Below are positions 24,701 through 62,562 of a stretch of DNA of 64,000 nt, one piece after another. The notes below the pieces were generated by a model. The model was not told the origin of the DNA. It worked only from the letters and a program-made list of their open reading frames with translations, and did no database searches. Within the stretch, counting starts at the first letter, position 1. Every line of letters starts with the position of its first letter. The position numbers and the translations under genes were made by a program. Source of the DNA: Candidatus Rifleibacteriota bacterium (GTDB lineage Bacteria > Muiribacteriota > Ozemobacteria > Ozemobacterales > Ozemobacteraceae); the NCBI GenBank assembly GCA_905236675.1, contig CAJOND010000001.1, forward strand, positions 62,001 to 126,000. The letters are read 5' to 3'.

Positions 24701-27565
24701 TTAAGAATTTCTAATAGATAACAGTTCATAAAGAGGAAAAGTTCTATTGGTTCTTCCTTTAATACTCATGCGTTCTATAAAATTTAAACGACCAGCACCA
24801 TGAAGCTGTCTAATACTGTAAGGGCAAACAAGGATACCGGTGTGTGTGGCTTTATGAGCTTGAACTTTTAATCTGGCAGCCAGATTTACCGGATTGCCTA
24901 TAACGGTGTAATCCAGTTTGCCACTTCTAGAACCTATTTTCCCTGAAACTGCATCGCCAGAACCTATGCCCATATATATCTTAAAATCAGGTAATTCATT
25001 TTTTAATCTTTTATTTATTTCTAATGCAGTTTTGCAGGCATTTAACACAATATTTTCTTCATTACATACTTTTCTAAATACTACCATAACAGTATCTTCA
25101 ATAAGTTTATCAATTTGACCATTATATTTTGTAGAAATTTCATCAACCGCGTCTATCATATTACCGATTATTTCTGTAACTTCGTCAGGTGTGTATTCAT
25201 TTAATTCTTTTTTACTTTTTAAAGCACAGAATAAAACAGCGACAGGAATTCTTTCCCCACTAGGTTGGAGTTGTTGTTCAATGTTAGAAGAGACTTCATT
25301 TATAACTTCTTTTGAAACATAGCTGCTCATCTTTTCTTTTTGCAGTAAAGCATCTGTCATTGAATTGAAACCATTACAAAGATTCTCAAATTCATCTCCT
25401 GAATTCCAGCTGATTTTATTTGAATAATCGCCTTCTGCAATTCTTTCTGCCCCTTTTTGGAGTATTCTTATTGGTGCGACGATCAAACCACTAAGTATTA
25501 TTGAGAGTGTAAGAATCATTATTATGATGTAAATGCCTATATTTTTGAGATTTATTTTATTACTGATATTGTCTTGTTTATTTTTTTCTGCAGAAGATAT
25601 AGCTATTGCATTTATTCTGCTTAAATATGTGCCTGTATTTATTGTATTATCTTTTTTCCATGTTTTTTGAGATCTTTCAGATAAAATTTGTTCTAATTTC
25701 GGCATAATATTTGAAATATTCATATTATTAGTCATTATCATATCGTTTGATTCAGATAAATCTCCGTTTCTTTTAACAGGAACAACAGCATTTCTGATGA
25801 TATAGTCTCCCATAACTTTTTGCTCGAATAATTCTGGCATTTGTGTTTTTATACTTTTTAATATTTTTTTATTTTCAAATTTAACTAAAACGGACCCTTT
25901 TATTTTGTCTTCATGAAGAGTATTTCCATAAATAGGAAAGAGTGAATAGAGAGAATTGGGTTCGTTAGGGATCGAAGTATGAATTTCGCCTATATTAGAC
26001 ATAACAGTAGATATAGAATGAGGTTGAAAATGGTATATACCCTCTAAATCACTAGGATCTTCTATTTTTGATAAGACAGTTTCACTAAAAAAGTTACCAA
26101 CAGTATCATCAAAAAGCTTTTTAGCATTTATCCCTAAAGCTAATAAGGCGTCATTAGGTTCAGCTTTGATTATATTTTCTTTTCCACCGAGATAATTATA
26201 AGATATAAGGTTAGCACCACTAGTTTTTATCCAATTATTTAATTTTTCATTTAGTTTTTCTGCTGATAATCCATTTATTTCATTACGTAATTTTGATACT
26301 TCTAATTCTCTATTGCTTATATAAGCTTCTATTGCTTTATTTATAACTTCAGTCTGCATTCTGGTATATGTTTGAATTTCATACTCAGAGTATTCTTCTT
26401 CGAAATACTGATTATAAAAAGACGCTATAAAAAAAGAGGCAAAAGGTAGTAAAACTGCTGCTAATACACAGATTATAACTCTTCCGAGAATATGTATATT
26501 GGCGACATAACCATAAATTCCTATTTTTAAAAGTCCAAAAGTTGCAAGCAACAATAAAAGTAAAGTTGGGAAACGCAGTCTCTTAATGATAGAACGCATA
26601 GGGTGTTCCAGCTTATCGTTAGGTATCGTTATTTTGATTATTGGTTCTTTTTCTAATAATTCTTTTAAATATAAAGGGTAATATGTGTCTAGGGTTCCGA
26701 GTCTCAAAAGCATTTCTTCTGATGTTTTTGAATAGATAGACAAGCCTTCTTTTTCAACTAGCTGGTAACGGAAAAATATAGGGTCTAATTTATCTGAGAT
26801 AGTTTCAATTGATTTTTTATTCTTAGAAAAGAGCAACTTATGGTTAAAGGTTTTATTTGATTTTAATATTGCATGTTTAGCAATTTTTTTCAGAGATATA
26901 TCTTTAACTTTGAATAAGCATAAAAACATTTGTTTATTTGTCGAACTATTGTAATCAAAACTTTTATAGTAAGCTACAATTTTACCTAGGTTTGGTTTCC
27001 CAGAAAGTATGGGGATAGCATTTTCTGGCATAAGATTTATTCCACCAGCAGCATGGAGAAATGTTTCTAAATAAATAATACTTCTGTCTTTATTTTGATT
27101 TTTTTCATTTTTTGATGAGTATGCTAGAAGAAGATTTTTTAATGAATACTTTGAACGTATTTTCAAATCATTATCTTCTTCATTAGATACATAATAATCA
27201 CAATAATTCTTAGATGTATTATAATAGTAAAGTGCTAATACCTTTGTTTCAGTCTGATTTTCAATAGCTTTTGACAGCTTTAATGCATTGAGTTCATCTT
27301 TTTGAAGATCTTTATTTGGGAACTCAGAGAGTTTTGATTCTATATAATAAGAATATGTAAGTTTGTTTTTTAATTCATTAACTTCATCTATTAGTTGAAT
27401 TTTAGCTTTTGAAACTATTCTTTTTTCACTTTGTTCCAATAGATATTTAATAGAAACGGTTAAGCCCAGATAAGGCAAAATAATCAGGAAAAACCAGATT
27501 AAGAAAATAAGAAAAGGATTGGATGATAATCTGGTATTTATGTTTATTCGTTTGAACTCTTTCAA
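24701..27565 (-). CDS. Membrane receptor with HAMP and class III cyclase-like domain, type A (copy 1)
   Basis: HAMP (APIRILQKGAERIAEGDYSNKISWNSGDEFENLCNGFNSMTD) then PVAVLFCALKSKKE...IDKLIEDTVMVVF...LDYTVIGNPVNLAARL. Confidence 0.9.
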   Translation of the reverse strand: MKEFKRININTRLSSNPFLIFLIWFFLIILPYLGLTVSIKYLLEQSEKRIVSKAKIQLIDEVNELKNKLTYSYYIESKLSEFPNKDLQKDELNALKLSKAIENQTETKVLALYYYNTSKNYCDYYVSNEEDNDLKIRSKYSLKNLLLAYSSKNEKNQNKDRSIIYLETFLHAAGGINLMPENAIPILSGKPNLGKIVAYYKSFDYNSSTNKQMFLCLFKVKDISLKKIAKHAILKSNKTFNHKLLFSKNKKSIETISDKLDPIFFRYQLVEKEGLSIYSKTSEEMLLRLGTLDTYYPLYLKELLEKEPIIKITIPNDKLEHPMRSIIKRLRFPTLLLLLLATFGLLKIGIYGYVANIHILGRVIICVLAAVLLPFASFFIASFYNQYFEEEYSEYEIQTYTRMQTEVINKAIEAYISNRELEVSKLRNEINGLSAEKLNEKLNNWIKTSGANLISYNYLGGKENIIKAEPNDALLALGINAKKLFDDTVGNFFSETVLSKIEDPSDLEGIYHFQPHSISTVMSNIGEIHTSIPNEPNSLYSLFPIYGNTLHEDKIKGSVLVKFENKKILKSIKTQMPELFEQKVMGDYIIRNAVVPVKRNGDLSESNDMIMTNNMNISNIMPKLEQILSERSQKTWKKDNTINTGTYLSRINAIAISSAEKNKQDNISNKINLKNIGIYIIIMILTLSIILSGLIVAPIRILQKGAERIAEGDYSNKISWNSGDEFENLCNGFNSMTDALLQKEKMSSYVSKEVINEVSSNIEQQLQPSGERIPVAVLFCALKSKKELNEYTPDEVTEIIGNMIDAVDEISTKYNGQIDKLIEDTVMVVFRKVCNEENIVLNACKTALEINKRLKNELPDFKIYMGIGSGDAVSGKIGSRSGKLDYTVIGNPVNLAARLKVQAHKATHTGILVCPYSIRQLHGAGRLNFIERMSIKGRTNRTFPLYELLSIRNS

Positions 27566-30500
27566 AGTTTGAGCTCCCTGTAGAAGATTTCAGACTCTTT
27601 ATTTTCTGAACAGAGTTCGATTTTGTTTTTTACACATTCATAAGTGGGTTCGTCTATAAAAACTTTGCTAGATATTGCTTTTTTTGTCATAGATTCTAAG
27701 TTTTCAGCTGTTTTTAGTATATCGCCTATGAGTAGAAATTCGCGTCTTCTTGCTTTTTTTCCGGCGAAACCTATCATAACTTCTCCAGTAGCAAGTCCAA
27801 TTCCGTTTTCTATTGAGAAAAGTCCTTTAGAAATTCGTTCCTTGTTAAAATTACTTAACTGTTCTCTCATTTCTAAAGCGGCTTTACAAGCATTTAAAAC
27901 ATAATCTTTATTTTTTTCTTCATAAAAAGCTGCTGAGATGGCATCTCCAACTATTTTTTCTATTGAACCGCCATACTTGATTATGGATTTTTCCATTAAT
28001 GTAAAATAATCATTTAATAAACTTACTACAGCTTCAGGGCTGTTTTTTTCTGAAATAGTAGTAAAACTTCTAATATCAGAACTTAATACAGTAACTTTTG
28101 CTCTAGTTATTTTTTTGTCTGTTGGGTTTTCTAGGCTGGTAAACAATTTATCAGAAACAAATCTTTTTAGTTTTTCTCGTTCACAGAGTCCAACAGACAT
28201 TTTATTGAAAGAATCGGATAATTCTTCCATTTCATCGCCTGAATTCATATTTATTTTAACATTAAGATGACCAATACTTATATAATTGAGAAATTTTGAA
28301 AAAGAATTAATCGGTTCTAACAATGCTCCAGAGAAGAAATCGGAAAGAAAAACAACTGCTATAATAGAATAAAATAGTAAAAACAAAGTTATTATTTTCC
28401 CGTTGATAAAAATCATTTTGGTTTTAGTAATCAAGGCTGCACTAACAATAATACTAGGGTTATCGCGATAATAACGCCAGTTTATCAGATAATAATAATT
28501 ATCATCTTCTTTTATTTCACTTCCAGAGCGTTCTTTGCCTATGGCTTTTCTCACTGCTTCTAACTGTAAATTCTTAAAGGGATAAACGTCAGGCTGATGT
28601 ATTTTTTCTCTAAATTCACTGGCATTTCGTTCAAACAAAGCATATTTAACTTGGGCATTTTCAAGATTCTGTTCTAATAGATTGTTATAATTTTCTAACA
28701 GTAATGTATTAAACCTATAAGCCATTATATCTCTCATATTTAGAAAACTATAAACGAGAGCTCTAGGCAAATTTGGGTTTTTTTCCGGAGTTAATAATTG
28801 ATATACAATTTTATCTTTCAAGGTTAAGCTTTCACTTTGAATAAGATAGCCTTCTTTAGCTAAAATATTATGGCTATTATGGTTCTCGAAATATACTTCC
28901 GTTATGCTTGAATATTTTAAATTTTGATTGCTATTATTTTGGTTTTCAGAAGTATTATTATCTAACAAATGCATATCCGACATAATACGATATAGATTTA
29001 TAAGTTTTTTGAAATGAACTGTTTCTCCATAAGAGTTTTCAGAAGAAAAACAAATATTTTTGCCATTTCTATCTAAAATGATAGCATAAGCAATGTTATT
29101 ATATATGCTATTAATATCACTTTTAAAAATACGTATTAATAAATTTAGTGCTTCTGAGTCTTTTTGTATTTTTGCACCATTTTTGGAAAATCTTTTAATA
29201 AAATAATCAGGTTTATACTTAAAATATGCATCAGATATTATCTTTTTATGCTTAAGCATATCAAAAGTTAAATTATCGACCACATCATCTTTTATTTTTT
29301 CTAATAAAGTCATTCTCTCATTAATCTTGTTTTCTATATTTGTAATAATTATTTTTTCTTCATTTTTTAACGTTAGATTTAAAATTATGAAAAGTCCTGT
29401 CATAGGAATAATAACAGCTACTAAAACTATTATTTTTACTTTAAAAGTTAAAGATAAATTAACCTTTATGAAATTGAGAAAAATATTAAAGATATAAATA
29501 GTAAGACCTAATATTATAATGCATATGGCTATGATTGTATATTCTTTATATTTTGTATAGTAGTTATTTGTTTCTGATTTATCTATACTTAGTTCTAACG
29601 AATGATTCTTTAAGTAAAGTAAATAATTCTCACATGATTTTTTATCACTTTCTTTATGTTCTTGAACAAAGTTATAAAAATAAAAAGGGAAGGGAGAATA
29701 AAATCTTATCTTATTTTCAGAATAATCCCAAGTAGGTTTACTAACTTCTTTTTTTGAAATGTTTCTTTTTATTTTTGATAAATTAGAATTTTTACATGCA
29801 GTATATAGTATTTTGTTAATTAAAATATCTGAACTTTTAACTAAAACATAGTATAACCCTAATATATTGTTCCTATTTTTATCTGTATTAATGAAAACAT
29901 TATAATACTGATAAATGTCATTATTTCCAAAGTTATTGGAAAAAAAAGAAATACAGTTGTTTGATTTTCCTATTTCTTTATAAAAAATACTTATTTTTTT
30001 TATGATTTCTAATGTAAAAGAATTCTTAAAATCAACTATTTCCTTTTTTAATTTATCTTTATATATTTTGTTGTAATTTATTATATTTATATTTTCTCTT
30101 TTAAAAATATTTTCTGATGATGGTAATAAAGGTTTATACCCATTAAAGTTTAATGCTGAATTTTCTAGAAATCTAAATAATATTGAGCCTATACAGGAAT
30201 ATAAAAATCTATTTTTGTCATCCTTTCCTTTAAGAATTGAATTATTGTCGTCTATATCAATATTTGTTAAATCATAACCAGAACACACGAAAATCATTGG
30301 TTCAAAGCCATATTTTTCTTTTAAGAAAGCTTTGGCATAATTAATAAATCCTTTTCCTATAAAATTAGGCTTATTGTTTTCATCGTATGAGTAAGTGTAT
30401 TGAGTGTCAGAGAAATTTGGAAATTTAAAATTTTTTTCTAGATCCTTAAATGCTGTCTCTATATGAGTTTTTGGCTTCAAATCTTCTTGGAAATTGTTCA

Positions 30501-30648
30501 TTTCACCAAGTAATTGTTCTTTTATCAGTTCAAAAGAAACAGTTTCGTATTTTTGCTCTAATTCTCTAAAATAACCATAAAGATAAATCAGAGGAATTAG
30601 AATCAGAAAAAAGATAGCTGTGATTCTTATGTGAAATAACGTTTTCAT
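27562..30648 (-). CDS. Membrane receptor with HAMP and class III cyclase-like domain, type B (copy 1)
   Basis: HAMP then VTVLSSDIRSFTTISE...IEKIVGDAISAAF...RREFLLIGDILKTAENLES; 4-bp overlaps with both neighbours. Confidence 0.9.
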   Translation of the reverse strand: MKTLFHIRITAIFFLILIPLIYLYGYFRELEQKYETVSFELIKEQLLGEMNNFQEDLKPKTHIETAFKDLEKNFKFPNFSDTQYTYSYDENNKPNFIGKGFINYAKAFLKEKYGFEPMIFVCSGYDLTNIDIDDNNSILKGKDDKNRFLYSCIGSILFRFLENSALNFNGYKPLLPSSENIFKRENINIINYNKIYKDKLKKEIVDFKNSFTLEIIKKISIFYKEIGKSNNCISFFSNNFGNNDIYQYYNVFINTDKNRNNILGLYYVLVKSSDILINKILYTACKNSNLSKIKRNISKKEVSKPTWDYSENKIRFYSPFPFYFYNFVQEHKESDKKSCENYLLYLKNHSLELSIDKSETNNYYTKYKEYTIIAICIIILGLTIYIFNIFLNFIKVNLSLTFKVKIIVLVAVIIPMTGLFIILNLTLKNEEKIIITNIENKINERMTLLEKIKDDVVDNLTFDMLKHKKIISDAYFKYKPDYFIKRFSKNGAKIQKDSEALNLLIRIFKSDINSIYNNIAYAIILDRNGKNICFSSENSYGETVHFKKLINLYRIMSDMHLLDNNTSENQNNSNQNLKYSSITEVYFENHNSHNILAKEGYLIQSESLTLKDKIVYQLLTPEKNPNLPRALVYSFLNMRDIMAYRFNTLLLENYNNLLEQNLENAQVKYALFERNASEFREKIHQPDVYPFKNLQLEAVRKAIGKERSGSEIKEDDNYYYLINWRYYRDNPSIIVSAALITKTKMIFINGKIITLFLLFYSIIAVVFLSDFFSGALLEPINSFSKFLNYISIGHLNVKINMNSGDEMEELSDSFNKMSVGLCEREKLKRFVSDKLFTSLENPTDKKITRAKVTVLSSDIRSFTTISEKNSPEAVVSLLNDYFTLMEKSIIKYGGSIEKIVGDAISAAFYEEKNKDYVLNACKAALEMREQLSNFNKERISKGLFSIENGIGLATGEVMIGFAGKKARRREFLLIGDILKTAENLESMTKKAISSKVFIDEPTYECVKNKIELCSENKESEIFYRELKL

Positions 30649-33545
30649 GATTGGTTTCTCAAGCCTAAGAGTTCATAGAGCGGGAAAGTTCTTTTTGTTC
30701 TGCCTTTAATTTCTATTCTTTCTATGAAATTTAAGCGACAAGCTCCATGTATCTTTCTAATACTGTATGGACAAAGGAGAATTCCTGTATTTTTAGCTTT
30801 ATAAGCTAGAGCTTTTAGTCTAGCTGCTAAGTTTACAGGGTCTCCGATAACCGTATAATCTAATTTACCATTTTTTGAACCTATTTTGCCAGAAACAGCT
30901 TCTCCAGAGGCAATACCCATATTCATCATGAATTCTGGAAGTTCTTTTTTCAATCGTTGATTTATTTCTAATGCTGTTTTACAAGCATTTAAAACTATGT
31001 TTTCTTCGGAATTGGTTTTTCTGAATACGACCATGATTGTATCTTCGACAAGTTTATCAATCTGACCATTGAACGAGGTAGAAATTTCATCTGTGGCATC
31101 AATTAAACAACTGATAATTTTGGTTACTTCTTCTGGAGAGTATTCACTAAGTGGTTTTTCTCCTTTTAAAACACAAAACAAGACTGAAACAGGGATTCTT
31201 TCTCCGCTTGGCTGGACTTGAACATCAGAGTTTAAAGATACTTCTTCGATAACTTCCTTAGAAACATAGTTTGTCATTTTTTCTTTTTGCATCAATGCTT
31301 CTGTCATGCCATTGAAAGCATTACAGAGATTTTCTAGTTCATCCCCTGACTTCCACTCTAATTTTTCTGAATAATCTCCTTTAGCTATTTTTTCTGAAGC
31401 TTTTTGTAATTTTCTAATTGGTGTGACTATAACTCCGCAAAGCAGGATAGAAAGAGAAATAATCATCATTGTTGTGTATAAAACTATATTTTTTAAGTTT
31501 AATCCAGAAAGGGTATCGTTGGAATTTTCTATCTTTTTTGCCACACTTGCGATTATTGCGTTAACTTTATTTAAATAATTTACGGAATTAACAGAAGAGT
31601 CGGTCATCCAATTTTTATAAGATTTCTTTTCGGTTATTTCATTTAAATTTTGCAAAAGTTTAGTATCTAAAGGAAATCCTTCTGAAAGTAGCATTTTGTC
31701 TTCTGTGGGCAATAATCCTTCTTCATTAACGGGAATAATAGCATTTCTAACCACATAATCTCCCATAGTCATAATCCTGAATAAGCTTGGCATTCTAGTT
31801 CTTAAGCTATTTAATAGTTCATAGGTATCAAATTTAATAAATACTGTTCCAATTACTTTATCCGCTTTCTTTTTATCAGAAAAGATTGGGAAAAAGGCAT
31901 ATAAAGAATTAGGTTCATTCTCAACAGAAGGGTATATTTGACTAATATTATTAACTATTTTATCTAAGCTGGAAGGTAAGAAATCGATATTCGTGTATTT
32001 GTTTTGTAATTCTGAAAGATCTTTAACTTCTGATATGTCAATTTTTTTATTAAAAGCGGTCTGAAACCCTTGATCTTCTATATATTTTGTTTCTTTTCCA
32101 TATGAGGAAAGATAATCTTCTGGGTCCGCTTTAATGATTATTTCTTTATCGTTTAAATAATTATATGAAATTACACTTGCTTTATATTCTTTAAGCCATT
32201 CAGATAGGAGAGAATGCAGTTCTTCTTTTGATTGCCCAGATATTTTATTTTGTAGCTCAGAGATAGCTAATTCATTATTTCCTATATAAGATTCTATTGC
32301 TTTATTGATTAATTCGGTCTGAATTTGTGTGTAATGCTGAATTTCACTTTCAGAATATTCTTCTGTAAAATATTGATTATAATAAGCAGTTAAAATAAAT
32401 GATGAAAAAGGCAATAAAACAGCTCCCAATACACATAAAACTACTTTTGATATTATACGCGTATTGCTAACATATCCATAAATTCCAATTTTTATTAGTC
32501 CAAAAGTAGTTAACAATATAAGTAACAATGTTGGGAAGGAAAGAAATTTAATAATTGCTCTCATTGGATGTTCTAGAGCAGAATGTTTTATAGTAACCTT
32601 TAAAACAGGTCTGTTTTGTAATAACTCTTTTAAATTTAAGGGGTAATAGCTGTTTAAAGTGCCTAATCTGATCAGCATCTCATCAGATGCTTCAGCTAGA
32701 ATTGATAATCCTTCTGTATTTCTTACAAATTTATAATAGAATTCATTATTTTTAATATCGTAGTCATAGTCATCGGCAGAATCACTTATGCTTTCTTTAT
32801 CACTAATTCTGACAATCTGTCTCTTATAGTTGTTTATAACTTTTTCATTAATTGCATTATCTATTATCTCTGTAAAAGGTATGTCTTTTTCTCTAAAAAG
32901 ACATAAAAACATTCTTTTGTTGTTATCGTTTGTTGTGTTGAAAGATTTGAAAAAAGCTAACATCCTACCCAATTTCTCTTTACCAGACAAAATCGGAGTT
33001 GCTTTTTCAGGCTTGATGTTTATTCCACCAGCAGCATTTAAAAATTGCTGGAAATAGATAACATTTTTGTTTTCTATTCTTTCATTATTTTTTATCGAAT
33101 CGTAGGTTAAAAGAAGATTTTTCATGGTTTGTTCTGAATACATACCCAAATCTTCTTTGAATTTATCTGAAATATATGAGGCAAAATAATTATTAGAGGA
33201 ATCTAAATAAAACAAAGCCGTAACATCTGATTTTGTTAGTTCCTTTATAGTTACTCCCAGTTTTAAAGCATTTAAACCAATAATTGATTCTACATTGGCG
33301 AGATCAGACATTTTTCTTTCTATATAGCATGATGAATTCAAATCTTTTTGGAAGTTACCTACTTCTTCTATCAGCTGTATTTTTGCTCTTTCAAGCTGCC
33401 TTTCTTCGCTTTCTGTCAGCATTATTTCAACAACATATGATAAGACAACAAATGGAAGAATTATAAGTAAAAACCATAATGAGAATAGTAGAAATGGTTT
33501 TGCTGTCAAATTTGCTCTGATTATTTTTTTATTTAATAGATTCAT
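30645..33545 (-). CDS. Membrane receptor with HAMP and class III cyclase-like domain, type A (copy 2)
   Basis: PVSVLFCVLKGEKP...IDKLVEDTIMVVF...LDYTVIGDPVNLAARL; paralogue of 24701..27565. Confidence 0.9.
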   Translation of the reverse strand: MNLLNKKIIRANLTAKPFLLFSLWFLLIILPFVVLSYVVEIMLTESEERQLERAKIQLIEEVGNFQKDLNSSCYIERKMSDLANVESIIGLNALKLGVTIKELTKSDVTALFYLDSSNNYFASYISDKFKEDLGMYSEQTMKNLLLTYDSIKNNERIENKNVIYFQQFLNAAGGINIKPEKATPILSGKEKLGRMLAFFKSFNTTNDNNKRMFLCLFREKDIPFTEIIDNAINEKVINNYKRQIVRISDKESISDSADDYDYDIKNNEFYYKFVRNTEGLSILAEASDEMLIRLGTLNSYYPLNLKELLQNRPVLKVTIKHSALEHPMRAIIKFLSFPTLLLILLTTFGLIKIGIYGYVSNTRIISKVVLCVLGAVLLPFSSFILTAYYNQYFTEEYSESEIQHYTQIQTELINKAIESYIGNNELAISELQNKISGQSKEELHSLLSEWLKEYKASVISYNYLNDKEIIIKADPEDYLSSYGKETKYIEDQGFQTAFNKKIDISEVKDLSELQNKYTNIDFLPSSLDKIVNNISQIYPSVENEPNSLYAFFPIFSDKKKADKVIGTVFIKFDTYELLNSLRTRMPSLFRIMTMGDYVVRNAIIPVNEEGLLPTEDKMLLSEGFPLDTKLLQNLNEITEKKSYKNWMTDSSVNSVNYLNKVNAIIASVAKKIENSNDTLSGLNLKNIVLYTTMMIISLSILLCGVIVTPIRKLQKASEKIAKGDYSEKLEWKSGDELENLCNAFNGMTEALMQKEKMTNYVSKEVIEEVSLNSDVQVQPSGERIPVSVLFCVLKGEKPLSEYSPEEVTKIISCLIDATDEISTSFNGQIDKLVEDTIMVVFRKTNSEENIVLNACKTALEINQRLKKELPEFMMNMGIASGEAVSGKIGSKNGKLDYTVIGDPVNLAARLKALAYKAKNTGILLCPYSIRKIHGACRLNFIERIEIKGRTKRTFPLYELLGLRNQS

Positions 33546-36500
33546 ATCTTGAGTTCTTTGTAGAAAGGATCATGGTTACTATCGTCTTCGCAAAAATCCA
33601 TATGGTTTTTTACGACAACATAAGTTTGTTCATCTATAAAAATTCTGCTTGATACAGCATTTTTAGTCATTGATTCTATATTTTTGGCAGATTTTATTAT
33701 TTCACCAATAAGTAAGAATTCTCTTCTTCTGGATTTTTCTCCTGCAAAACCAATCATAACTTCGCCTGTTGCTAAACCGATTCCATTTTCTATAGCGAAT
33801 AAACCTTTTGCAATACGTTCTTTGTTAAATGATTCCAGGTTTTTTCTCATTTCCAAAGCTGCTTTGCAGGCATTAATAACATAGTCCTTGCTTTTGTCTT
33901 CGTAAAAGGCTGCCGATATTTCATCCCCGATTATTTTTTCTATAGAACCACCAAATTTGATAATTGATTTTTCCATTAAAGTAAAATAATCATTTAATAA
34001 ACTAACTACCTCCTCGGGTTTGTTCTTCTCAGAAATAGTGGTAAAACCTCTAATGTCAGAGCTAAGCATAGTAACCTTTGCCTTAGTGATTTTTTTATTA
34101 TCAGAATCCTCAATACTAGAAAACAATTTATCAGAAACAAATCTTTTGAGCTTTTCTCTCTCGCAAAGTCCTTCAGACATTTTGTTAAAAGAATCTGCAA
34201 GTTGCTGCATTTCATCTCCAGTTTTCATTTCTACTTTTATATTAATTTGCCCTAAACGAATTTCATTTACAAAACTAGACAAAGCTTTTATCGGTTCGTA
34301 TATAGCTCCGGCAAAAAAATCTGATAAAAGAATCGTAGCAAACATACTATAAATCAATAATATAAAAAAGAGTAAGCTGCTATTAATTATTCTTATTTGA
34401 GTTTTGGGAACTATGGCAGCTGCTACAAAAATTAGAGGATTATCGCTATAATACCTCCAGGTTTTTATATAATAATTTTGACTAGTTTCATATATATCGC
34501 TACCTGAATTTTTTATTCCTATTGCTTTATTTACCGAATCTATTTGCATTTCCCTGTATGGATAACTTTTATTTTGAGGTATTATTTCTCTGAAACCACT
34601 GTCATCCCTCTCGAAGACAGCATATTTAACTTGAGCGAAAGAATTATCTTGAGATAAAAGTTCCTTATATTTATTATTTAAAACAAAATTTACTCTTGTT
34701 GCCATTATATCTTTCATGTTTGTATAGTTGAAAGCTAAAGCTTCTGGTGAGTCGGGCTTGTCTTTTGAGGCTAATAACTGGTAAACAATTTTATCTTTTG
34801 GAGTTAAAGTATCGCAGGGAATAAGGTGGCTTTCTTTGGCTAATTCATTATTTTTATTATAAGTTTTTAGAAATGAGCTTAGATTATTTTGAACCGAAAC
34901 ATTATGATTCTCAAATTTATGACTTTCTTCCGTATTTTTCCCTAATAATCCCATTTCTGAAAGAATTTTTGCAAGTAAAGTAATCCTATCGACTTTTTCT
35001 ATTTTTTTATTCTCGTTTTCGCTAAATGCTTTTGCTGATTTCCCAGATTTATCTAATATATATAATTGACTAAAAATATTACTGGTTCCTTCGTATGCTA
35101 GTTTATGCAGTATTTGACTTTTATCTATCAGTTTAAAATTATTAAAAAATTTATCTATAGAGGAATTAAATAATAGATCTTCAAGCATTTTTTTATGCTT
35201 GAGCAGATCTATAGAAAAATTATTAACCGCATCATTCTTTATTTTATCAAATAACTCAAGCCTATCGGAAATGATTTTCTCAGATTTAGATATTAATATT
35301 CTATTTTCGTTTTCCATTCCTAAATATGAAATAATCCATAGACCAGTCATTGGAACTATGACAGCAACCAATACTATGATTCTGATTTTTAAGGAAAGAG
35401 GGGTATTAAAATTAACTATTTTTAAGAATATATTAAAAATATATATAATCAAAAGAAAGATTATCACAAACAAAGTGTTTTTTATAATATTTTTAAAAGT
35501 TAAGTATTTGTTTGGAATTGATTTCCTTTTAACAAAAACACAAAGGGAATTGTTTTGTATATAATCTTGATAAACTTTGTATGACTCATCATCCCCCGAT
35601 CTGTGTTCCAATATGAAATTATAAAAATGAGATGGGAAAGGTATTTCAAATTCTATGGTTTCTTTGGTTAAATTCCAAGTGGGTATTTTTATTCCTTTAT
35701 TAGTTATTTTTCTTTCTATTTTTGTCAATTTGTCTCTATTATTATTAAAACATGCTGAATAAATCAGTCTCTTTATATTTATATCAGAACCCTTGAATAG
35801 AACATAATATAGACCTAAGATGTTATTACTTTTATTGCCTTTATTTAAAAAAGCATTGTAATATTCATAAACTCTTTGATTCCCGAACTTATTGGCAAAG
35901 AAAGCAAAACATTTATTGGGTTTCCCTAAATTTTTATAAAAAATGGATATATTTTTAATAACTTCCAAAACAAAAGTCTGTTCATTATATTTTTTTAGTT
36001 TTTTATAACTTGATTCAAAATTTTCCAAAGTATCATCTACTATAGGTTTAATATTTATAAACTCGTTTTTATTATTATTTAAGCACTGATATATAATGCT
36101 GCTTATACAAGAATAAAGGAAAATGTCTTTTTTATCTTTGTCGTCATAGAGCTTATCTTTATCAATAAACATGGTATTGGAAAAATCATTATCGGTTGTT
36201 ATAAAAACAAAGGGTTCCATATCATATTTTGAACCAAGATAATTACTTGCTTTATATATAAAGTCTTTCCCTAAAAAAGAAGTTTTTTTACCATCGTTAA
36301 AAGTATTGTTGTTTAATTCTGAAATATTGAACTGAGTTTCTAAATCTTTAAACGCGTTTTCGATATATTTTTCAGGAAGTAAATCTTCCTGGAATTCGCT
36401 CATTTCTTTTAATAATTGTTCTTTTACAAGTTCCTCTGTGGCTGTTTCATTTTTATCTGCCAATTCATCAAAATATAAAAATAAATAATAAAAAGGGATA

Positions 36501-36550
36501 ATTATTAATGCAAATAAAGTTAAAACTCTAATGTGGTTAAAGATTTTCAT
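33542..36550 (-). CDS. Membrane receptor with HAMP and class III cyclase-like domain, type B (copy 2)
   Basis: VTMLSSDIRGFTTISE...IEKIIGDEISAAF...RREFLLIGEIIKSAKNIES; paralogue of 27562..30648. Confidence 0.9.
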   Translation of the reverse strand: MKIFNHIRVLTLFALIIIPFYYLFLYFDELADKNETATEELVKEQLLKEMSEFQEDLLPEKYIENAFKDLETQFNISELNNNTFNDGKKTSFLGKDFIYKASNYLGSKYDMEPFVFITTDNDFSNTMFIDKDKLYDDKDKKDIFLYSCISSIIYQCLNNNKNEFINIKPIVDDTLENFESSYKKLKKYNEQTFVLEVIKNISIFYKNLGKPNKCFAFFANKFGNQRVYEYYNAFLNKGNKSNNILGLYYVLFKGSDINIKRLIYSACFNNNRDKLTKIERKITNKGIKIPTWNLTKETIEFEIPFPSHFYNFILEHRSGDDESYKVYQDYIQNNSLCVFVKRKSIPNKYLTFKNIIKNTLFVIIFLLIIYIFNIFLKIVNFNTPLSLKIRIIVLVAVIVPMTGLWIISYLGMENENRILISKSEKIISDRLELFDKIKNDAVNNFSIDLLKHKKMLEDLLFNSSIDKFFNNFKLIDKSQILHKLAYEGTSNIFSQLYILDKSGKSAKAFSENENKKIEKVDRITLLAKILSEMGLLGKNTEESHKFENHNVSVQNNLSSFLKTYNKNNELAKESHLIPCDTLTPKDKIVYQLLASKDKPDSPEALAFNYTNMKDIMATRVNFVLNNKYKELLSQDNSFAQVKYAVFERDDSGFREIIPQNKSYPYREMQIDSVNKAIGIKNSGSDIYETSQNYYIKTWRYYSDNPLIFVAAAIVPKTQIRIINSSLLFFILLIYSMFATILLSDFFAGAIYEPIKALSSFVNEIRLGQINIKVEMKTGDEMQQLADSFNKMSEGLCEREKLKRFVSDKLFSSIEDSDNKKITKAKVTMLSSDIRGFTTISEKNKPEEVVSLLNDYFTLMEKSIIKFGGSIEKIIGDEISAAFYEDKSKDYVINACKAALEMRKNLESFNKERIAKGLFAIENGIGLATGEVMIGFAGEKSRRREFLLIGEIIKSAKNIESMTKNAVSSRIFIDEQTYVVVKNHMDFCEDDSNHDPFYKELKI

Positions 36551-45124: not shown

Positions 45125-45199
45125 AATATTATGAAGCTCTATTTTGTTTAAAAACTTTGGCTTTTAGGTTTTGTCTGACTAATAATTTTTTTTTCACGC

Positions 45200-45291
45200 T
45201 ATACCTTCTTTTAATTTCAAGGACTGTATGGCAGACGAAAGGCTTGTAGGCTTGAATCACTTAAGCTTTTACAACCCTTTTCTTTTTTTGT
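45200..45291. repeat. Degenerate partial third copy of the small-RNA unit (terminator half only)
   Basis: ttcaaggactgtatggcagacgaaaggcttgtaggcttg...gcttttacaacccttttcttttttt vs ttcaaggactgtatagcagacgaaaggtttgttggcttg...gcttttacaaacctttttctttt. Confidence 0.7.
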
Positions 45292-45323
45292 AATTTTTGA
45301 TGTAAAAGGGAGAAAAGGGAGGC

Positions 45324-45352
45324 TTTACAATTACTAGGAATAGCATTATACT
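45324..45352 (+). promoter_or_regulatory. Sigma70-type promoter, copy A
   Basis: TTTACA-17 nt-TATACT. Confidence 0.7.
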
Positions 45353-45358
45353 TTAGTT

Positions 45359-45558
45359 AGAAACATTCAGATGCGCTAACATCTGAATGCCCATAAGTCG
45401 CTTAGTTAACAGGTGTAGCAAAAGCTAACACCAAAACGGCGACAACTAAGAGTATTAAGGCTACTCTTTTCACTGTGCAACCTCCTTTTCTCAGGTAAGG
45501 TATAGCACTTCGGAACCGCTGTAAATCTAGCTATACGTTTAGGTTTATAGCGGTTTTT
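45359..45558 (+). ncRNA. Predicted antisense small RNA, copy A
   Basis: Starts just after the promoter; ends in terminator AACCGCTGTAAATC...GGTTTATAGCGGTTTTT (14 pairs incl. 2 wobbles). Confidence 0.6.
45402..45473 (-). CDS. 23-aa hydrophobic peptide, copy A (GTG start)
   Basis: AAAAGGAGGTTGCACA-GTG; (M)KRVALILLVVAVLVLAFATPVN. Confidence 0.55.
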   Translation of the reverse strand: MKRVALILLVVAVLVLAFATPVN

Positions 45559-45627
45559 CCATTATTGGATTTTCAAAGAACTATTTAAATTAAAAAAAAT
45601 ACTAGAAAAAAAAGGATAAAGGGAGGC

Positions 45628-45656
45628 TTTACAATTACTAGGAATAGCATTATACT
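45628..45656 (+). promoter_or_regulatory. Sigma70-type promoter, copy B
   Basis: TTTACA-17 nt-TATACT, same spacer sequence as copy A. Confidence 0.7.
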
Positions 45657-45662
45657 TTAGCT

Positions 45663-45870
45663 AGGAACATTCAGGTGCGCTAACACCCGAATGCCCATAA
45701 GTCGCTTAGTTAACAGGTGTAGCTGAAGCTAACACCATAACGGCGACAACTAAGAGTATCGTGACTACTCTTTTCATCGCTATAACCTCCTTTTATCCTT
45801 CAAGGACTGTATAGCAGACGAAAGGTTTGTTGGCTTGCTATACGTGAGCTTTTACAAACCTTTTTCTTTT
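45663..45870 (+). ncRNA. Predicted antisense small RNA, copy B
   Basis: Ends in terminator AAAGGTTTGT...ACAAACCTTTTTCTTTT. Confidence 0.6.
45706..45777 (-). CDS. 23-aa hydrophobic peptide, copy B
   Basis: AAAAGGAGGTTATAGCG-ATG; MKRVVTILLVVAVMVLASATPVN. Confidence 0.55.
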   Translation of the reverse strand: MKRVVTILLVVAVMVLASATPVN

Positions 45871-45902
45871 ACTTTTTCGTTTTCAAAGAGCTTTATTATT
45901 AC

Positions 45903-59346: not shown

Positions 59347-60501
59347 TCAGTCAAATGACCAGCGGTCTGGAACATAGAATTCCATGGCTTTAGATTTTTC
59401 GCCTATCCCGATTTTCCAGGCTGTAATAGGAGAAATATAACTTTTGTTTATATCACCATAACCACCAGAAAACATAATTTCGTCAGGATAGTACTTTTTC
59501 GCAGCATTTGATTGTTCTCTTCTATAGTTTTCTCTTTCATACAAATCAAAAGCACCAAAAGCATGAAGAGTTTCGTGAGCTATGGTCCCAGCCTCAATAG
59601 GTTGTCCCCAGCCACTTTTAAATAACCAGGAAAAATCATGATAATCATCAGGATTAGAGCCTGCATAATCAAGGAAACAATAGGAACGGCCATCTTTATC
59701 TATAATAAAATTAGTTACAATATTCTCACATTGTGTTTCGTAGCGAATTTTCTGTTTAAATTCTTTCCCTGTTAAACCCATGCTTTTTAGAACCTTACGA
59801 AAACTGCCGTAAGCATCAGGATCATTTTCATTGAGACCATATATCTTATCTATGGGGATCGCAGAATCTCCCAAGGGGTAAATATTTTCAAAAGTAATGG
59901 TAGAACCATATTTTTTAGCTTCTCTAGTAAGCCATTTTTCAGCAATTTCCAAATTCTTTTTATAAATCTTATGATAATTGTCGTTTTTCCAGTTTTTTTC
60001 AGAAACAAAGAAAGTGCAAACGCAGATACTACCGCTTAAAGTCTTAGCTAAGCCTACATTTTTAGTATGAAGTAAGCCATCTTCAGGAAGAACTGTACCT
60101 TCAGGCATGTAAAAGAAAGCATCATTGAGCAGGTTATGGCTTTTGCCGTGTTTACCGCTTTCTACTGACATATCGTGGCTTTTTCTTTTTCTACCAGAAT
60201 CTTTTATTTCTTTTTGGCTTTCTACTTCCTCTTCTTCATCTTCATCATATTCTGATTCTTCTTCAGAATCTACCTCTTCATCATCTTTCTTCTTGACTCC
60301 TGAATCCCAATTAAAAGCAATCATATCACCTTTGGTAAAAGTATTGTCATAGGTATCTGTATTATTTGTAAAATCTACATTATAAGTAAACTTTTCGTTT
60401 CCAACTATATATTCATTCTGGTTTTTACTATTGTTAGACAAAACGATAGAAGAAATGCAAAGAAAAGAAGCTACTGATAAAGCTATTATTTTATATTTCA
60501 T
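59347..60501 (-). CDS. Secreted zinc metallopeptidase (metzincin-like) with acidic linker
   Basis: Signal peptide; IAHETLHAFGAFDLYE = HExxHxxGxxD; D/E-rich linker. Confidence 0.8.
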   Translation of the reverse strand: MKYKIIALSVASFLCISSIVLSNNSKNQNEYIVGNEKFTYNVDFTNNTDTYDNTFTKGDMIAFNWDSGVKKKDDEEVDSEEESEYDEDEEEEVESQKEIKDSGRKRKSHDMSVESGKHGKSHNLLNDAFFYMPEGTVLPEDGLLHTKNVGLAKTLSGSICVCTFFVSEKNWKNDNYHKIYKKNLEIAEKWLTREAKKYGSTITFENIYPLGDSAIPIDKIYGLNENDPDAYGSFRKVLKSMGLTGKEFKQKIRYETQCENIVTNFIIDKDGRSYCFLDYAGSNPDDYHDFSWLFKSGWGQPIEAGTIAHETLHAFGAFDLYERENYRREQSNAAKKYYPDEIMFSGGYGDINKSYISPITAWKIGIGEKSKAMEFYVPDRWSFD

Positions 60502-60520
60502 GAAATTTCCTTTATTTATA

Positions 60521-60567
60521 GAATAGAGATTAGAGGCAAGAGGTTAGAGGTTAGAGGTTAGAGGATT
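60521..60567. repeat. Heptanucleotide tandem repeats (GGTTAGA-like)
   Basis: gaataga gattaga ggcaaga ggttaga ggttaga ggttaga ggattg. Confidence 0.9.
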
Positions 60568-60568
60568 G

Positions 60569-60639
60569 TTTTAGCTAGTCTTTTTAGGTTTAATTGGTGT
60601 GGGGTGTGGTTGGTGTGATTGTTTAATCGAATCTGGATT
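60569..60639 (+). repeat. G-rich dispersed element, copy 2
   Basis: ttttagctagtctttttaggtttaattggtgtggggtgtggttggtgtgattgtttaatcga. Confidence 0.85.
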
Positions 60640-60650
60640 GCCACTCACTT

Positions 60651-60700
60651 TTCCCTTCTCTCTTCTCTCTTTTCTCTTTTCTCTTTTCTCTTATCTCTCT
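60651..60700. repeat. Heptanucleotide tandem repeats (GAGAAAA on the - strand)
   Basis: ttctctcttctctcttttctcttttctcttttctcttatctctct, 7-bp period. Confidence 0.85.
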
Positions 60701-60726
60701 AGAAAAGGCTTTCAGCCTTTTCTAGA
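60698..60726 (-). terminator. 13-bp perfect hairpin overlapping the stop of 60722..61507
   Basis: TCTAGAAAAGGCT-TTC-AGCCTTTTCTAGA. Confidence 0.75.
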
Positions 60727-61507
60727 TATTCGGGTCTACTACATGGGTATTATAATTAACATTTGTTGCCCCATTTCTAAGAGGGATGAGAGTAAAAGAA
60801 GCCTTTATTTTTCCATTAAAGTAATAGAATTCCATTATTGTCTGACCATTAACTTTTTTTGAGTTACTCCAACTCTTACTAGGGGTATTCGTCGTAAAGT
60901 TAGCTTTACAACTGCCATTAATATTAACACTACCGTTGGCCAAGAAAGCAACAGTGTGTTTCATTTCTATTTCATCACCATAAAAGTAAGTTATATATTC
61001 AGTCATTGTCCCCTGTGGGTCTAATTTATTAGTAATAGTTCTTGCAGGAGCATTCTTATGGATGTGATAATCAGTTTTTGATACTGGAAGAGATTGATTT
61101 TTTTTATCTATTAATGCTTTTATATCTGCAAAACCGCCGCCTTTTGAAGAAGAATCATTGTCGTCATCATCATCATCGTATTCTTCGTCTTCACTGCTTG
61201 ATGATTCATCAATGCTTTCATCATCGTCATCATCATCATATTCTTCTTCTTCACCTATTTCTTCATCATCTTCACTTTGTTCTTCGTTATCTGTTTCAGC
61301 ATTATTGCCAGTATTCCAGTTAAAAGCAATCATATCTCCTTTTGTTAAGATATTATCGCTAATGCTGGTTTTATCTTTTGATTCTGTGTAGGCAGATTCT
61401 TTTCCGCTATATAAGTAATGGTCTATATCTGTATTGTCACTTGATAGAACGATTGAAGAAATGCCAAGAATAGAAGCTACAGATAAAGCTAGTATTTTAT
61501 ATTTCAT
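60722..61507 (-). CDS. Secreted protein, acidic low-complexity linker plus conserved C-terminal domain
   Basis: Signal peptide nearly identical to 59347..60501; KGDMIAFNWNTG; EEEEYDDDDDDES linker; C-term EYITYFYGDEIEMKHTVAF...VDPNI. Confidence 0.8.
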   Translation of the reverse strand: MKYKILALSVASILGISSIVLSSDNTDIDHYLYSGKESAYTESKDKTSISDNILTKGDMIAFNWNTGNNAETDNEEQSEDDEEIGEEEEYDDDDDDESIDESSSSEDEEYDDDDDDNDSSSKGGGFADIKALIDKKNQSLPVSKTDYHIHKNAPARTITNKLDPQGTMTEYITYFYGDEIEMKHTVAFLANGSVNINGSCKANFTTNTPSKSWSNSKKVNGQTIMEFYYFNGKIKASFTLIPLRNGATNVNYNTHVVDPNI

Positions 61508-61560
61508 GTAATTTCCTTTAGTTAGAGAATAGAGATTAGCGGCAAGAGTTTAGAGGATTA

Positions 61561-61635
61561 TTTTAGCTAATCTTTTTAGGTTTAATTGGTGTAGGGTGTG
61601 GTTGGTGTGATTGTTTAGCCGAAAAGCTGGATTGC
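61561..61635 (+). repeat. G-rich dispersed element, copy 3
   Basis: ttttagctaatctttttaggtttaattggtgtagggtgtggttggtgtgattgtttagcc. Confidence 0.85.
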
Positions 61636-61752
61636 CACGCCTCTTTCAGAGGCTCGGAATGACATTTACCTAAGAACTTTCGCAGTATTACAAACTAAAC
61701 AATTCTCTTACCTCTTACCTTTTGTCTCTCCAGAAAAGGCTTGCAGCCTCTT

Positions 61753-62562
61753 CTAGATATTCGGGTCTATTATATCCCATTTATAATCTATACGCCAAAA
61801 ATTGTTTCCTTGAGGTGTAAGAGTGAAAGTATATATTATTTTTCCTCCAAAATAAGTGAATTTTGTTACCCAGACATTGCCTTGTTGTGTTGTATTTGAT
61901 ACAACAGTAGGAGGGGTATTTGTCTTATAATTGGTTTTAACATTTCCGTTAATTCTGTATGTACCGTTAGGATAAAAGTTAAGTGTATGTGTTAATATTA
62001 TTTCATCGCCATAGAGATAGGTTATATATTCTTGTACAGAGCCCATGGCATCTAATTTATTTATAACAGTATTATGAGGTGCATTCTTATGGACATGAAA
62101 ATCAGATTTTGATTCAGGAAGAGTCGAATTTTTATTTTCCAACTTTGATTTTATATCTCCGAAACCATTACTATTACTTGGTTCGGCATTTCCGTCATAG
62201 TCTTCTGTATAATCTGAATCATCGTCGTCATCGTTATCACCGTCAATGTCATTATCGGTATCGTCACCGTCTTCATCGCTAGAATCATCGTCAGAATCAT
62301 CGTCAGAATTTTCAGCTAATTCTTCATCATCAGTTTCATCATCTGATTCATCATCAACTTCTTCTTTTTTAGAGCCTTTTTCCTTAGTATTAGGACGATT
62401 AAGTGCTAATAGTTTTTCGCTATCAGATTCAAGGCTGTCATTGGCTGATTCATTTTGAATTAGAAGAGAAGAGTTTAAATCCAATATAGTATAAATAGGG
62501 GCAGAGTATGCACCCAAAGCAATAGATATAAATGCTGCTGTTGTTAATAATTTGTTATTCAT
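61753..62562 (-). CDS. Secreted protein, paralogue of 60722..61507
   Basis: C-term EYITYLYGDEIILTHTLNFYPNGTYRINGNVKTNYKTNTPP...IDPNI; D/E/S-rich linker. Confidence 0.8.
   Translation of the reverse strand: MNNKLLTTAAFISIALGAYSAPIYTILDLNSSLLIQNESANDSLESDSEKLLALNRPNTKEKGSKKEEVDDESDDETDDEELAENSDDDSDDDSSDEDGDDTDNDIDGDNDDDDDSDYTEDYDGNAEPSNSNGFGDIKSKLENKNSTLPESKSDFHVHKNAPHNTVINKLDAMGSVQEYITYLYGDEIILTHTLNFYPNGTYRINGNVKTNYKTNTPPTVVSNTTQQGNVWVTKFTYFGGKIIYTFTLTPQGNNFWRIDYKWDIIDPNI

Follow-up and report, generated by a model that had tools for sequence, protein, structure and literature searches.

There are two adjacent units of common design, A and B, in the stretch of DNA analysed here (the window), which comprises 64,000 nucleotides with a GC content of 32% and belongs to contig C1 of a draft genome of 5.17 Mb (G000). 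Both strands of each unit carry predicted features (Table 1). The plus strand carries a promoter, a hairpin and an intrinsic terminator, and the minus strand carries a Shine-Dalgarno (SD) sequence followed by a hydrophobic reading frame that lies wholly opposite the predicted plus-strand RNA.

An earlier note on this DNA had described the two promoters and the two minus-strand frames behind AGGAGG, and all four are present. The two peptides differ at four residues without an insertion or deletion, as the note had stated, and the hairpins near the RNA 5′ ends carry both the compensatory change and the G·U pair on the minus strand that it had reported. Also borne out was its description of terminator stems that are unlike in sequence and nevertheless paired (AACCGCT.../...AGCGGTT in one copy versus AAAGGTTTGT/ACAAACCTTT in the other), with a common GCTATAC loop and an upstream GTATAGC. 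The partial third copy that it had proposed is real, although decayed. This copy C (G000:C1:107178-107279 in genome coordinates) is without promoter and without hairpin 1, and its degenerate frame reads VKKKLLVRQNLKAKVFKQNRAS.

Table 1. Features of the tandem units, in window positions
Feature	Position	Strand	Basis
Unit A	45304-45568	both	sequence
Unit A putative anti-SD arm at the mRNA 3′ end; GGGAGAAAAGGGAGG on the plus strand, complementary to SD flank 45481-45492	45308-45322	-	own-versus-swapped duplex test, fold
Unit A antisense promoter, TTTACA-N17-TATACT	45324-45352	+	sequence; arrangement kept in 26/26 units
Unit A predicted antisense RNA, ~200 nt, start inferred ~7 nt past the -10	45360-45558	+	promoter, terminator, fold z = -7.2
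Unit A hairpin 1	45364-45389	+	covariation over 26 units
Unit A peptide VKRVALILLVVAVLVLAFATPVN, 23 codons, hydrophobic	45402-45473	-	sequence, frame and core tests
Unit A Shine-Dalgarno AGGAGG	45481-45486	-	sequence
Unit A GTATAGC element, complementary to terminator loop	45500-45506	+	unit alignment
Unit A intrinsic terminator, 15-bp stem, loop GCTATAC (45530-45536), T tail	45514-45558	+	
Unit B	45608-45875	both	sequence
Unit B putative anti-SD arm, AAGGATAAAGGGAGG on the plus strand	45612-45626	-	near-perfect complement of SD flank 45786-45800
Unit B antisense promoter, TTTACA-N17-TATACT	45628-45656	+	sequence
Unit B predicted antisense RNA, start inferred	45664-45865	+	promoter and terminator
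Unit B hairpin 1	45668-45693	+	unit alignment, covariation
Unit B peptide MKRVVTILLVVAVMVLASATPVN, 23 codons, hydrophobic	45706-45777	-	sequence, frame and core tests
Unit B Shine-Dalgarno AGGAGG	45786-45791	-	sequence
Unit B GTATAGC element	45809-45815	+	unit alignment
Unit B intrinsic terminator of class II/III, with a basal stem of 10 bp, loop GCTATAC (45837-45843) and T tail	45821-45865	+	
Decayed unit C, SD/leader/terminator half only, degenerate frame	45178-45279	+	covariance model R2, 64 bits

Elsewhere in the window, a run of four large genes forms an ABAB repeat (24701-36550, minus strand) in which cyclase-like C-terminal sequences and HAMP-like linkers can be recognized by eye. Three adjoining secreted-protein-like genes at 59347-62562 (minus strand) resemble one another in their N termini and in acidic stretches of low complexity.

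Distribution and genomic setting

There are 26 full-length representatives of the unit, and they are found in five Candidatus Riflebacteria MAGs from rumen and goat abomasum (genome-wide counts rest on model searches). Six occur in the window genome, three in CAJOQX01 (G001), seven in ONIU01 (G002, RUG334), five in JAFPZP01 (G003) and five in CAMJNS01. When related genomes were searched with a covariance model built on 11 units, 21 units were recovered above 100 bits in four genomes, with no strong match in 20 other genomes of the same family. A pattern scan of the named genomes added five units in the fifth genome, CAMJNS01, where four are in tandem and one is dispersed. Together with the fold of the unit A plus-strand RNA (z = -7.2), these recoveries put the design far outside what chance would give. 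Strong matches to a second model built from all 26 units (R2) are confined to the genus, and a blastn search of 76 genomes found units in three genomes of the same genus and nowhere else. One blastn match (G039:C53) and weak model matches in G009 and G024 were rejected after the loci were read and such a peptide was found to be missing.

Three more distant loci, which were among the weak matches to R2, are candidates for a wider class and are excluded from the 26. Two of them, paralogs from a different family of the phylum, carry MKRKILLILVLMLLLVKNLH opposite a hairpin with a clear terminator (L120, G039:C39:5572-5757, E 3.7e-8) and MKRKIRTILVLMLLLVNNLH opposite a hairpin (L121, G039:C30), and a third locus carries MKILIKVLILVSFLLIATAAY with a hairpin and terminator (L123, G000:C91:298-524). 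These putative hydrophobic peptides have 20-21 amino acids, and the loci are without the GCTATAC loop and without an obvious anti-SD arm.

The tandem array adjoins comM in the window genome, in G002 and in G003. Fragments in G001 agree with the same setting, as does unit S5_4 of CAMJNS01, in which the sequence upstream of the leader resembles the comM 3′ end. Two orthologous units, one in G000 and one in G002, are surrounded by GDP-sugar (sugar-nucleotide) genes. There are also prophage units in two species (G002 and G003), flanked by an Rz-like spanin and a phage integrase. One listed IMG/VR contig matches the unit pattern, and no further viral copies were found; a blastn search of phages and plasmids gave no match. 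The unit-bearing prophage of G002 (C170) additionally carries an Avd-like protein and the reverse transcriptase of a diversity-generating retroelement beside a tail-fibre-like gene (L075:2707-4843). In the same genome, a head-to-head palindrome without an ORF (L057, G002:C156:17916-18105) consists of two promoter-plus-hairpin halves from different units and is flanked by full units in inverted orientation (15454- and 19438+). It looks as if inverted units had been joined by recombination at hairpin 1.

Conserved features of the two RNAs and the peptide

All 26 units have a strong sigma70-like antisense promoter with 17-nt spacing and, on the same strand, a 5′ hairpin and an intrinsic terminator, which together predict an RNA of approximately 200 nucleotides spanning the complete ORF and the SD. 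Hairpin 1, which directly follows the inferred start, shows compensatory change. Across the 26 units 87.7% of its cells are paired, double changes occur in eight of the ten pairs, and there are 48 double-change cells versus 17.3 in shuffled alignments. Its covariation score of 0.461 compares with 0.187 after shuffling and is reached by none of 500 shuffles, which do not remove the relatedness of the units; slid controls, which retain this relatedness, agree with the shuffles and are only 16-43% paired.

The terminators fall into three sequence classes. Classes II and III comprise 17 units; their basal stem is 97.6% paired, with 26 double-change cells versus 6.7 in shuffles, and its covariation score of 0.513 (0.205 shuffled) is equalled by none of 500 shuffles. 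The GCTATAC loop is present in 25 of the 26 units, the exception being G3_0 with GAATTAC, and there is almost no variation in the upstream GTATAGC. The earlier note had suggested that these two elements form a loop interaction. Their complementarity is kept, but since both are invariant in sequence, an alignment cannot show that they pair. Pairing of GCTATAC with GTATAGC in the spacer beyond the SD is conserved in only part of the units and is not counted as evidence. A loop-loop (kissing) role and a protein-binding role are equally possible.

Read on the minus strand, the terminator hairpin is the leader hairpin of the peptide mRNA. This raised the possibility of a riboswitch or other leader element on that strand. 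The idea was rejected, since in every unit this hairpin comes with a T tail and a strong promoter on the plus strand.

An SD and a hydrophobic frame of 21, 22 or 23 codons lie wholly inside the predicted antisense RNA in 25 of the 26 units, the remaining unit (S5_1) being frameshifted. The start codons of the 25 intact units, each of which is provided with an SD, are GTG (11), ATG (8) or TTG (6). Frame 0 is open in all 25, whereas the other two sense frames are open in none and in two, respectively. The core is without a charged or strongly polar residue in 23 of the 25 peptides. A core free of such residues would be expected to persist in only about 7% of cases after 20 random substitutions, and the median difference between units is 33 nucleotides. 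Within the group of 23-codon frames, dN (0.25) is lower than dS (0.46), giving a dN/dS of about 0.55. In the comM group, variation at third codon positions does not exceed that at first positions, so that the peptide-coding signal is modest in this group; constraints on the RNAs of the two strands may explain part of this pattern. Searches of the peptides against Pfam and NCBIfam gave nothing above the cut-off and only signal-peptide-like noise below it. No Pfam match indicates homology to the Hok protein, which is about twice the length of these peptides.

A sigma70-type promoter for the peptide mRNA was looked for across the units and was not found. There is, however, an AG[CT]TCTTT block (mRNA strand) some 20 nucleotides before the leader hairpin that is common to most units, including those at unrelated sites. 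In the window it is located at about 45577-45586 (A) and 45886-45895 (B), in each case without an accompanying sigma70 box. This block might serve as a promoter of the peptide mRNA or as a site for a regulator. For units at comM, transcription by read-through is possible.

As judged from the sequences, the strongest regulatory feature of the units is one that the earlier note had overlooked, namely a predicted pairing of the mRNA ends that covaries unit by unit. A conserved GGGAGG-type block precedes the antisense -35; on the mRNA strand it can be read as an anti-SD, about 80 nucleotides past the stop codon. The flanks of this block match the SD flank of their own unit, as exemplified by unit B (GGATAAAAGGAGG with CCTCCCTTTATCC), L028 (GAGGTTGAAAGGAGG with CCTTTTCAGCCTC) and L047 (GGCAAGAAAGGGGG with CCCCCTTTTTTGCC). 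Over the 26 units, the duplex of each SD flank with its own arm averages -22.1 kcal/mol, a value equalled in 0 of 20,000 permutations; permuted partners average -16.6 ± 0.63 kcal/mol. When the SD core is left out, the averages are -9.5 for own and -6.3 for permuted partners, again equalled in 0 of 20,000. Same-sense and hairpin-1 controls are null. The dispersed units alone give the same outcome (0 of 20,000), and in the comM group the effect persists in weaker form (24 of 20,000).

Predicted minimum-energy mRNA folds contain 9-20 SD-arm pairs in 25 of the 26 units, and unit G1_x1 is without arm pairing. The fold z-score of the unit B mRNA is -7.6. In nearly all full-length mRNAs the predicted probability that the SD is unpaired is near zero. 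When the arm is removed, predicted SD openness rises on average, although it stays low in unit A and some others through local pairing. Because the SD is predicted to be still substantially paired after 3′ truncation in many units, arm removal alone may not suffice to expose it.

Interpretation and relation to known systems

We think it quite probable that the units are type I toxin-antitoxin-like modules, in which full antisense overlap is combined with a lock formed by 5′-3′ end pairing. The minus-strand mRNA would encode a single-helix membrane-type peptide of 21-23 amino acids, the putative toxin. From the promoter between the peptide stop codon and the mRNA 3′ arm, an RNA of ~200 nucleotides would be made as the complement of the entire ORF together with its SD and leader, and this putative antitoxin would block ribosome binding and form a substrate for RNase III. 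In cis, pairing of the 3′ arm with the SD flank of its own mRNA would keep the primary transcript translationally silent. Perhaps 3′ trimming removes the arm and ends this silence, with the trimmed mRNA then guarded by the antisense RNA. Transcription, the processing step, membrane toxicity and antitoxin action are all inferred from sequence.

Since toxicity is part of that inference, the peptide might instead be an antisense-controlled small membrane protein, a regulator or stress peptide acting on a membrane partner at physiological level. Orthologous units at fixed places (beside comM, and among GDP-sugar genes in two species) and moderate purifying selection on the peptides fit this explanation. 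Nevertheless, we regard it as unlikely, given the many paralogs, the decayed (C) and frameshifted (S5_1) copies and the prophage location, and given that double locking by antisense RNA and end pairing is typical of toxin genes rather than of housekeeping peptides.

Two further explanations were considered. The arms are inverted repeats around the promoter-ORF segment, and the G002 palindrome shows that recombination occurs at units. The arms could thus be the DNA-level ends of an invertible or mobile segment, with the SD/arm match a by-product of inversion or gene conversion. This is very improbable, because the orientation of the segment relative to the terminator is identical in all 26 units, the arms vary between units in a manner that a site-specific recombinase would not tolerate, and they overlap the SD precisely, with SD occlusion as the predicted effect. 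Alternatively, the plus-strand RNA might be a trans-acting small RNA that uses GCTATAC as a seed, as the invariance of the loop and its upstream complement among nearly all units with variable stems would allow. The opposite frame would then be incidental. This is scarcely credible, as 25 of the 26 units retain on that strand an SD, a start codon, length changes that stay in frame and a hydrophobic core.

If the units are type I-like modules, there is a tentative possibility, which we rather doubt, that the paralogs in one cell form a cross-talking network. GCTATAC in the antisense RNA and GTATAGC in the mRNA leader would serve as a common kissing or protein-binding handle through which any antisense RNA could engage any paralogous mRNA, while each SD/arm pair would remain a private, unit-specific lock. 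Such a network would amount to two-layer type I control, shared plus private, and we know of no described system of this kind.

The earlier note had called the locus Sib/Ibs-like tandem antisense RNAs. The architecture, the 26 units and the compensatory hairpins uphold this likeness, but membership of the family is not supported by Pfam or Rfam. At the Rfam gathering cut-off no family matches, and at E <= 10 there is no Sib (QUAD) match and nothing meaningful. The best match to Pfam PF13956 (Ibs_toxin) in the window genome scores 15.1 bits versus a cut-off of 27 and is not at the units. The unit family therefore resembles Ibs/Sib in its working and is not homologous to it by either database. 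In E. coli, the Sib (QUAD) RNAs are antisense to the ORF and SD of tiny, very hydrophobic peptides and occur as multi-copy repeats (PMC4147584), and the Riflebacteria units likewise combine a hydrophobic peptide, an antisense RNA over ORF and SD, and repeats. They differ in phylum, in peptide length (21-23 amino acids versus the 18-19 given for Ibs in the earlier note), in RNA length (~200 nucleotides versus a repeat of ~140) and in having strong predicted anti-SD end pairing and a GCTATAC terminator loop.

End pairing has precedents elsewhere. In AapA/IsoA of Helicobacter pylori, a 3′ anti-SD hides the SD by a 5′-3′ long-distance interaction and 3′ trimming is needed (PMC6733600). The Riflebacteria units share the multiple copies, the cis-overlapping antisense RNA and a putative SD-hiding 3′ anti-SD, but no sequence relation was seen, and their antisense RNA would start from a promoter located between stop codon and 3′ arm. 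In Hok/Sok of plasmid R1, pairing of the mRNA ends silences the full-length transcript and 3′ processing activates it (PMC4147584). Similar end pairing of the full-length mRNA is predicted here, although the Riflebacteria antisense RNA covers the whole toxin ORF and that of Hok/Sok a leader region. Finally, published type I systems had come from Proteobacteria, Firmicutes and Tenericutes until 2025, when MsoT1/MsoA1 of the cyanobacterium Microcystis was reported as the first from elsewhere (PMC12390103). It is likewise a type I-like locus in an unexpected phylum, in an unrelated organism; it is supported by a growth effect in E. coli, whereas the Riflebacteria units are known here from sequence alone.

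No earlier type I system in this phylum was found by the searches made, and a literature search, with most subscription journals outside its scope, found no paper joining Riflebacteria with toxin-antitoxin systems. If the units are indeed type I systems, then 26 representatives with covarying RNA structure extend such systems to an uncultured phylum, which suggests that the narrow range known for type I systems may be an artefact of searching. Full antisense overlap and SD/anti-SD end pairing, known separately, would be joined in one 270-bp unit, and the compensatory changes make both modes of control directly testable.
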